Made by a program: the position numbers and the translations under genes. The notes beneath the pieces were generated by a model. It was given only the letters and a program-made list of their open reading frames with translations, had not been told where the DNA came from and did no database searches. A stretch of 47,707 nt of DNA from Sphingomonadales bacterium (GTDB lineage: Bacteria; Pseudomonadota; Alphaproteobacteria; Sphingomonadales; Govanellaceae), in contig JACFMS010000013.1 in assembly GCA_019455285.1 (NCBI GenBank), positions 1-47,707 on the forward strand, read 5' to 3'. Positions 43,741-45,561 of this stretch are shown in pieces. Positions within the stretch are counted from its first letter, which is position 1, and each line of letters begins with the position of its first letter.

Positions 43741-43816
43741 GCCGCAATAGCTCAGTTGGTAGAGCATCGCATTCGTAATGCGGGGGTCGGGGGTTCAAAT
43801 CCCTCTTGCGGCACCA
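43741..43816 (+). tRNA. tRNA-Thr (anticodon CGT)
   Basis: A full 76-base cloverleaf: acceptor GCCGCAA/TTGCGGC, D arm GCTC...GAGC, anticodon stem TCGCA/TGCGG around loop TTCGTAA (anticodon CGT, reading ACG), T arm GGGGG/CCCTC with TTCAAAT loop, and an encoded CCA end. Not part of a visible operon. A GC-rich stem AAGGGG/CCCCTT (43847-43863) follows about 30 bases later without a T run. Confidence 0.97.
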
Positions 43817-43867: not shown

Positions 43868-44236
43868 CTACATCCTGATCTTATAGTCCTGGATCAAGGC
43901 GCTGGCGGGAATGCCCATTTTGGCGTGCAGGTTGCGAATCATCTCAATAGAAAGCTTGCGCCGGCGGTTGAGGATTTCCGACACCCGGCTGCGCGAGCCC
44001 AAGATCGGCTCCAGATCCTTGCGCGACATGCCAAGGGCCTCCATGCGATGCTTTATGGCGGCGACGGGATCGGGATCGGCGATGGGAAAATGCCTGTCCT
44101 CATAAGCCGCCGCCAAGGTTGCCAGGATATCCAGCTCATCGCCCGCCGCCGTGCCTGCTTTGGCGCCCATCAGCTCTTCAATGCGCTTTAAGGCGGCGGC
44201 ATAAGCCTTTTTGGTTCGTACCGGCTTGATATTCAT
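43868..44236 (-). CDS. higA: HigA-type antitoxin, helix-turn-helix
   Basis: The 122-aa product has an N-terminal toxin-binding region and a C-terminal Xre/cro helix-turn-helix: AAIKHRMEALGMSRKDLEPI, then LGSRSRVSEILNRRRKLS. The layout matches the COG5499 group of HigA antitoxins. It follows higB by 15 bases; toxin-first order is the rule for higBA. It should neutralise HigB and repress the operon through the TTCCC-N5-GGGAA sites upstream. Confidence 0.92.
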   Translation of the reverse strand: MNIKPVRTKKAYAAALKRIEELMGAKAGTAAGDELDILATLAAAYEDRHFPIADPDPVAAIKHRMEALGMSRKDLEPILGSRSRVSEILNRRRKLSIEMIRNLHAKMGIPASALIQDYKIRM

Positions 44237-44251
44237 GCTCAGCGCTCTTTC

Positions 44252-44545
44252 TCAAATCTTCTCGACATCCGTTTCATCGTATTGCTTGTGGGTGCCGATA
44301 AAGCGGATATAGGCTATGCCATAAGCATAGTTGATCCACGCAACCAACCGATATTTGTTGCCGGCAATGTTAAAAACCACCCGGCCGCCTTTTAATATAG
44401 TGGCATTCCGGTACTGTTTCTTGACATCCTGCGGACCCTTCCAATCAGCCTCACCGGCAACTTTGAACCATGCCTTCAGCGGCTCCTCGGCGCCCGGATA
44501 GTCCGCCCAGAAATCTTTCAGCGTTTTGCGGGCGATAATTCTCAT
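44252..44545 (-). CDS. higB: HigB-type toxin (RelE superfamily mRNA interferase)
   Basis: The 97-aa product MRIIARKTLKDFWADYPGAE ... VFNIAGNKYRLVAWINYAYG matches HigB/RelE-like toxins, ribosome-dependent endoribonucleases. Typical basic and aromatic residues are present (KKQYRNATILKGGRV, YIRFIGTHKQYDETD). The ATG at 44545 is chosen by family alignment; a longer open frame reaching 44890 runs antisense-free into the glycosyltransferase gene and is not family-like. The predicted leader is only about 10 bases. Higher AT content than the neighbouring genes suggests acquisition. Confidence 0.92.
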   Translation of the reverse strand: MRIIARKTLKDFWADYPGAEEPLKAWFKVAGEADWKGPQDVKKQYRNATILKGGRVVFNIAGNKYRLVAWINYAYGIAYIRFIGTHKQYDETDVEKI

Positions 44546-44561
44546 CTCCGGCCTTTGCCGC

Positions 44562-44612
44562 ACTATACCTAATTCCCGTTTTGGGAACAAGAAGAAATTC
44601 CCAAAAAGGGAA
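44562..44612 (-). promoter_or_regulatory. higBA promoter with two tandem operators
   Basis: On the minus strand TTGTTC (44585-44590) and TATAGT (44562-44567) are 17 bases apart. Two copies of TTCCC-N5-GGGAA lie at 44573-44587 and 44598-44612, centres 25 bases apart. The first fills the spacer and overlaps the -35; the second lies just upstream. Both share the oriented extension GTTCCC-N5-GGGAATT. This is what an autorepressed toxin-antitoxin operon should look like. Confidence 0.8.
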
Positions 44613-44628
44613 CCATAGATGAGGCTGC

Positions 44629-45561
44629 TTACGGCAGCTTGCCGTGCCGGCGCGCCCGCACCGCCTCGGCGAAATAGCCGCTTAAGAAATTGACCTCCCA
44701 GCGGGCCTCCAGCGCTTGCGCCTCGCGGCGCTTGAGCATGGCCGACAGCAGGCGGCCGAGTTCCTTGACGAAGCGCCGCGCCAGCCATACCGGCACGCCG
44801 CAAAAAAGCGGCAGCTCGCGGGGGTAGCCGGCGGCCATTTCGCGCCGGCAGACGGCGCGGCCAAAGCGCCGGGCGCAGCGGAAAATCCATGACGTCGCCA
44901 GCTCATGCGGCCAGATCAAGTGATGCACCGCGGCTCCGGGGACGAACCAGGCGCGCTCGCCGGCGGCGCTGGCCTGTTGCAGAAAATCGGTTTCCCAGCC
45001 GATGTCGTTGTCTTCCGCGTCGCCGTCCTGCGCCTGAAAGCGGCCGAACCGCTCCAGCGCCTGACGCCGGATCGCCATGTTGGCGCCGCGAATAAGGGTT
45101 GGCGACACCGGACCTTCGGTCAAGGCCGGCGGCGTGATGCCGTAGGTGACGCTCAAGGGGATGTGATCGAGAATGCGCAGCCGCGGCGCGGCCGGCCAGC
45201 TCGGCGCCACCGCACCGCCGAACAGCGCGTAATCCGGATTGCGGCTGGCGGCGCTGCGCAGGGCGCGCAGCCAGTCCGGGGCGGGCACCGCGTCATCGTC
45301 GATGAAGGCCACCAGGTCGCCATCCGCCGCCGCGATCCCGCGGTTGACGGCGGCCGCCTTGCCCGACCCCGTCCCGCAAAGGAGGGTGATCGGCAACCGA
45401 TCGGCGAAGGCGCGGACGATGACCTCGCTGCCGTCGCTGCTGCCGCCGTCCACCACCACCAAGCGATAGCCGCCGACCGGCGGCTCCAGGCGGGCAAAGG
45501 CGTCGAGCACGATCGGCAGCGTGTGCCCGCCGTTCCTGGTTGTCATGACAACCGTCATCAT
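44629..45561 (-). CDS. Family 2 glycosyltransferase
   Basis: GT-A-fold sugar transferase of 310 aa. The N-terminal nucleotide-sugar region has MMTVVMTTRNGGHTLPIVLD, VVVDGGSSDGSEV and GKAAAVNRGIAAADGDLVAF. The metal-binding IDDDAVPAPDW is the DxD-like motif, and DNDIGWETDFLQQA is the later acidic block. No transmembrane span is evident. An ATG nine codons upstream (45588) is possible. Probably assembles a surface polysaccharide with the neighbouring deacetylase gene. The 186-base gap on its 5' side is AT-rich and holds a GCTGCC/GGCAGC stem (45595-45617) but no gene. Confidence 0.92.
   Translation of the reverse strand: MMTVVMTTRNGGHTLPIVLDAFARLEPPVGGYRLVVVDGGSSDGSEVIVRAFADRLPITLLCGTGSGKAAAVNRGIAAADGDLVAFIDDDAVPAPDWLRALRSAASRNPDYALFGGAVAPSWPAAPRLRILDHIPLSVTYGITPPALTEGPVSPTLIRGANMAIRRQALERFGRFQAQDGDAEDNDIGWETDFLQQASAAGERAWFVPGAAVHHLIWPHELATSWIFRCARRFGRAVCRREMAAGYPRELPLFCGVPVWLARRFVKELGRLLSAMLKRREAQALEARWEVNFLSGYFAEAVRARRHGKLP

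Follow-up and report, generated by a model that had tools for sequence, protein, structure and literature searches.

The window analyzed herein, a stretch of DNA of 47,707 nucleotides, carries two closely spaced inverted repeats (dyads) upstream of a toxin-antitoxin operon on the minus strand, raising the question of which protein binds them and what such binding would do to the operon. The features that bear on this question are, in the direction of transcription:

44598-44612, minus strand: distal operator O2 (candidate), TTCCC-TTTTT-GGGAA, upstream of the -35-like hexamer; minus-strand letters TTCCCTTTTTGGGAA
44585-44590, minus strand: -35-like hexamer TTGTTC, inferred from sequence
44573-44587, minus strand: proximal operator O1 (candidate), TTCCC-AAAAC-GGGAA; minus-strand letters TTCCCAAAACGGGAA
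44562-44567, minus strand: -10-like hexamer TATAGT, inferred from sequence, at 17-bp spacing
44252-44545, minus strand: higB, 97 aa, HigB_toxin PF09907 (1.8e-30, 105 bits, cut-off 27)
43868-44236, minus strand: higA, 122 aa, with a C-terminal helix-turn-helix (HTH_3, residues 61-112)

The answer that we consider very probable, from comparison of homologous loci, is that the two dyads serve as operators at which dimers of HigA, the antitoxin encoded downstream, would repress higBA. An initial annotation had described two exact TTCCC-N5-GGGAA dyads 25 bp apart that share a longer GTTCCC...GGGAATT context, and both the coordinates and the letters proved correct. Specifically, the dyad centers lie at 44605 (distal) and 44580 (proximal), that is, 25 bp center to center, and the extension GTTCCC-N5-GGGAATT is common to both. 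These two were the only exact copies of TTCCC-N5-GGGAA in the 3.30-Mb genome, in which the reversed pattern, serving as control, had four sites; from the latter, the chance of a second copy lying within 50 bp of the first was estimated at roughly 1e-4. The genome had 59 sites with one mismatch, versus 89 with up to one mismatch for the reversed control, and enrichment of the kind expected for a HigA regulon was not seen.

The dyads precede higB and higA, which are arranged with the toxin first and higA directly downstream on the same strand, and the PF09907 HigB is present as a single copy in the genome. The AlphaFold2 model of HigA (mean pLDDT 92) placed the recognition helix at residues 82-89, and its best matches in the PDB were 6kmq, 6kml, 6jq4, and 5ycl, at a TM-score of only ~0.5 and an rmsd >6; by sequence too, the E. 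coli and Shigella HigA structures ranked first. HigA thus combines an N-terminal dimerization part with a C-terminal HTH, as in the E. coli HigA fold (again with a TM-score of only ~0.5), and a palindromic operator, recognized from sequence only, lies in the higBA promoter. Based on the HigB and HigA domains and the match to E. coli HigA, we therefore assign the operon to the E. coli type of HigBA. The P. vulgaris/P. aeruginosa type was rejected because it requires an N-terminal HTH, whereas that of HigA is C-terminal. The operon adjoins a tRNA-Thr gene (43741-43816), and its G+C content (43868-44545) is 54.6% as compared to 64.5% for the window, both as expected for an acquired cassette.

With respect to the promoter, the spacer between the two hexamers (44568-44584) is 17 bp long, and the proximal dyad covers 12 of these 17 bp, overlaps the adjoining three bases of the -35, and ends 5 bp short of the -10. 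Hence, the TTGTTC and TATAGT hexamers and the 17-bp spacer that had been described were indeed present, but the description of the proximal dyad as filling this spacer did not hold. A promoter scan of the window did not list the higBA promoter, which scored under the threshold. The putative promoter is nevertheless backed by the same layout in relatives, in that 44 of 107 had TTG at the -35 place with respect to the operator (runner-up offset, 11), and in 21 of these 44 the best -10-like hexamer followed at 17 bp, more often than at any other spacing.

Homologous higBA loci came from whole-genome searches, a genome-contig scan (using a 7-row HigA alignment, with the best 80 loci kept), a viral-contig scan, plasmids, and E. 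coli K-12, resulting in 165 non-redundant loci from several phyla once duplicates were dropped; thirty loci were excluded, most because calling of the higB start was unreliable and two because of a short upstream region. A perfect 5+N5+5 dyad was located before higB in 126 of the 165, whereas dinucleotide shuffles gave 26.6 on average (at most 34) and coding controls 29. Neighboring odd gaps (1, 3, 7, and 9) were also enriched, as expected because the arms of the same dyads extend on either side, while even gaps were not. Dyads with C at position -4 and within the position limits were present in 107 loci, and the remaining 58 mostly had an imperfect dyad, about half a dozen being without a convincing one; since palindromicity was used to call operators, loci with poor dyads are under-represented in these counts. 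Related higBA loci without the dyads, which the initial annotation had named as evidence against its reading, were encountered for the distal dyad only, which is absent in most relatives.

If HigA is the ligand, the letters of the half-sites should follow its recognition helix, and among the 107 operators they did so to a large extent. Of the 65 operators whose HigA has S86, 53 had T at base -7, as compared to G in all 20 with Y86. At base -5, which was associated with residue 87, C occurred in 89 of 98 operators with E87, A in six of eight with D87, and G in the lone E. coli case with R87. In combination, N83/Y86/E87 was accompanied by GTCCC in 18 of 18 loci and N83/A86/D87 by AGACC in four of four, while E. 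coli, with S83/S86/R87, has TTGCC. Residues 83, 86, and 87 all fall within the predicted helix, and were picked after several helix positions had been inspected on these same data. Because relatives inherit both traits by descent, pairs of loci were banded by overall HigA identity, with the recognition helix excluded. In every identity band, pairs with the same residues at 83/86/87 had equal half-site letters at all five positions more often (44-78%) than other pairs (9-16%), although the pairs are not mutually independent, rendering the figures descriptive. Moreover, in a tree-based sign test nearly all pairs that differed in both traits went the predicted way, with only one to two supported independent pairs, such that the result was below significance.

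There were exceptions to these associations. Eight loci, most of them flavobacterial, combined E87 with A at -5, and in 12 of the 65 operators with S86 the base at -7 was A or C, mostly where residue 83 was A, G, or P. In flavobacterial loci such as L121, L144, and L155, TTACC-N5-GGTAA operators were found despite E87, and residue 81 was F or Y. The link between residue and base is an association seen across sequences rather than a measured contact. Still, because this tracking of residues 83, 86, and 87 persists when overall identity is matched, the dyads are probably bound by HigA. We see an even chance that there is a recognition code in C-terminal-HTH HigA of several phyla, in which residues 83 and 86 would set base -7 and residue 87 (with 81) base -5, so that operator and antitoxin would change together and higBA modules be kept from cross-regulating. 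A description of such a helix-to-base code, or of the operator letters seen here, was not found in the literature searched, which lay largely outside subscription journals.

We also examined the second dyad. The second-site scan listed 31 loci versus 4.7 expected from shuffled sequence; about 26 of these look convincing, and a few resemble chance matches. Spacings in relatives were mostly 24-50 bp, the commonest class being 24-27 bp, with 29 bp including E. coli and 33-34 bp forming another group. All three nearest relatives (L117, L118, and L119) had a second dyad, at spacings of 24-26 bp (24, 25, and 26), the distal copy being imperfect in L117 and L119. The sister species (G001) has a perfect proximal operator and a degenerate distal one; it has thus lost the distal dyad, and this dyad is optional. 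The same species has a truncated higB (L006:145-678, minus strand), cut after residue 53 and fused in frame via AQT to the whole of HigA, forming a 178-aa open frame that kept the perfect proximal operator. This predicted fusion would mean that the toxin is lost and the antitoxin retained, with misassembly possible given that the genome is in contigs. Finally, the second dyad of L090 and L109 (TCACC/TCGCC-N5-GGTGA) is centered on the higB start codon, 27 bp beyond the first in the downstream direction, indicating that a second site can also be downstream of the first.

The dyads had been predicted to place two HigA dimers on nearly the same helical face, which did not hold. With 10.5 bp per turn, a spacing of 25 bp corresponds to 2.38 turns, setting the dimers ~137 degrees apart, and 23 hand-picked spacings in relatives had no common helical phase (Rayleigh p ~0.33).

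Among other readings of the dyads, the one that survives best is that the proximal dyad alone is functional and the distal dyad a relic or a low-effect accessory. Most relatives have a single recognizable operator, in keeping with this, as are the imperfect and lost distal copies noted above. The distal copy in the window is, however, exact, and a 24-26 bp pair recurs in all three nearest relatives as well as in several further ones, for which reason the distal dyad seems maintained, and we regard the single-operator reading as rather unlikely. Less likely again, and in our view improbable, is that the distal dyad is the intrinsic terminator of the upstream glycosyltransferase gene, in place of an operator or in addition to being one. 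It is located just past that gene (stop 44629) on the same strand, could form a hairpin of 7 bp (-8.2 kcal/mol, z -3.2), and was flagged by a terminator scan. However, the tract that follows it, TTTCTTCTTG, is a poor T-run, and the scan itself yielded fewer such sites than shuffles (one versus a mean of 3.0), making for a weak terminator candidate. Moreover, the proximal operator has exactly the same arms, the upstream gene persists in the sister species even though the dyad is lost there, and the near-equal spacing of the second dyad in the nearest relatives also speaks against termination. That a regulator other than HigA, such as LexA, is the ligand of the dyads, with higBA under an SOS promoter as in Caulobacter, where both LexA and HigA repress higBA (PMC13384398), is very improbable, since the GTTC motifs that do occur in the sequence form no LexA box of the alphaproteobacterial type (GTTC-N7-GTTC or (T/A)TGTTC-N6-TGTTC) within 44541-44640, and a host regulator would not explain half-sites that vary with the HigA helix.

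HigA autorepression, the reading that we prefer, has precedent in E. coli, where HigA acts as a repressor of the higBA promoter in vivo (PMC2814082). Together with the occurrence of dyads in most homologous loci and the tracking of the HigA helix by the half-sites, this supports the proposal that the dyads are HigA operators. The E. coli K-12 locus (ygjNM) resembles the one here in being a toxin-first operon with a PF09907-type HigB and a C-terminal-HTH HigA, and in having two tandem 5+N5+5 dyads before higB, TTGCCAATCTGGCAA and TTGCCAATTTGTCAA, as read from the sequence. It differs in its half-site (TTGCC, versus TTCCC here) and spacing (29 versus 25 bp), and the proteins are only 26% (HigA) and 31% (HigB) identical. 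In Salmonella SehAB, a HigBA homologue, dimers of the SehB antitoxin contact a DNA that carries two palindromes, located at the putative -35 and -10 boxes (PMC7160566), a likeness in paired promoter palindromes that is drawn from the published description. The XRE-type antitoxin dimers of P. aeruginosa HigBA and P. putida GraTA likewise use two palindromic sites, with two dimers binding cooperatively on opposite DNA sides (PMC6987408), but have an N-terminal HTH, a TTAAC GTTAA palindrome, and overlapping sites. V. cholerae higBA2 has a single operator (PMC11006873). The closest plasmid toxin, from an Acinetobacter higBA (L199; HigB 66-68% identical), also has a dyad before higB, although there is one clear operator, AGTCCC-N5-GGGACT, consistent with Y86 in its HigA. 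Given Salmonella SehAB and P. aeruginosa HigBA, paired operators at higBA are a known arrangement, and the correspondence of residue to base is the sole part that is possibly new.

Under HigA autorepression, HigA, alone or with HigB, would occupy the proximal operator over the -35 and spacer, blocking RNA polymerase, and the distal operator would take a second HigA dimer, probably making repression stronger. By analogy to E. coli HigBA (PMC2814082), degradation of HigA would then open the promoter, and both genes would be made. HigB may act as a corepressor, and two operators are compatible with the conditional cooperativity that had been suggested as a possibility, in which the toxin:antitoxin ratio would switch operator binding between strong and weak. 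At this locus, the arrangement points to ordinary autoregulation. More broadly, the conserved geometry, often TTGNTCCC-N5-GGGA ahead of the -10, together with the link from helix to base, would predict the operator from the HigA sequence, and this link would allow testing of which higBA modules in one cell cross-regulate.
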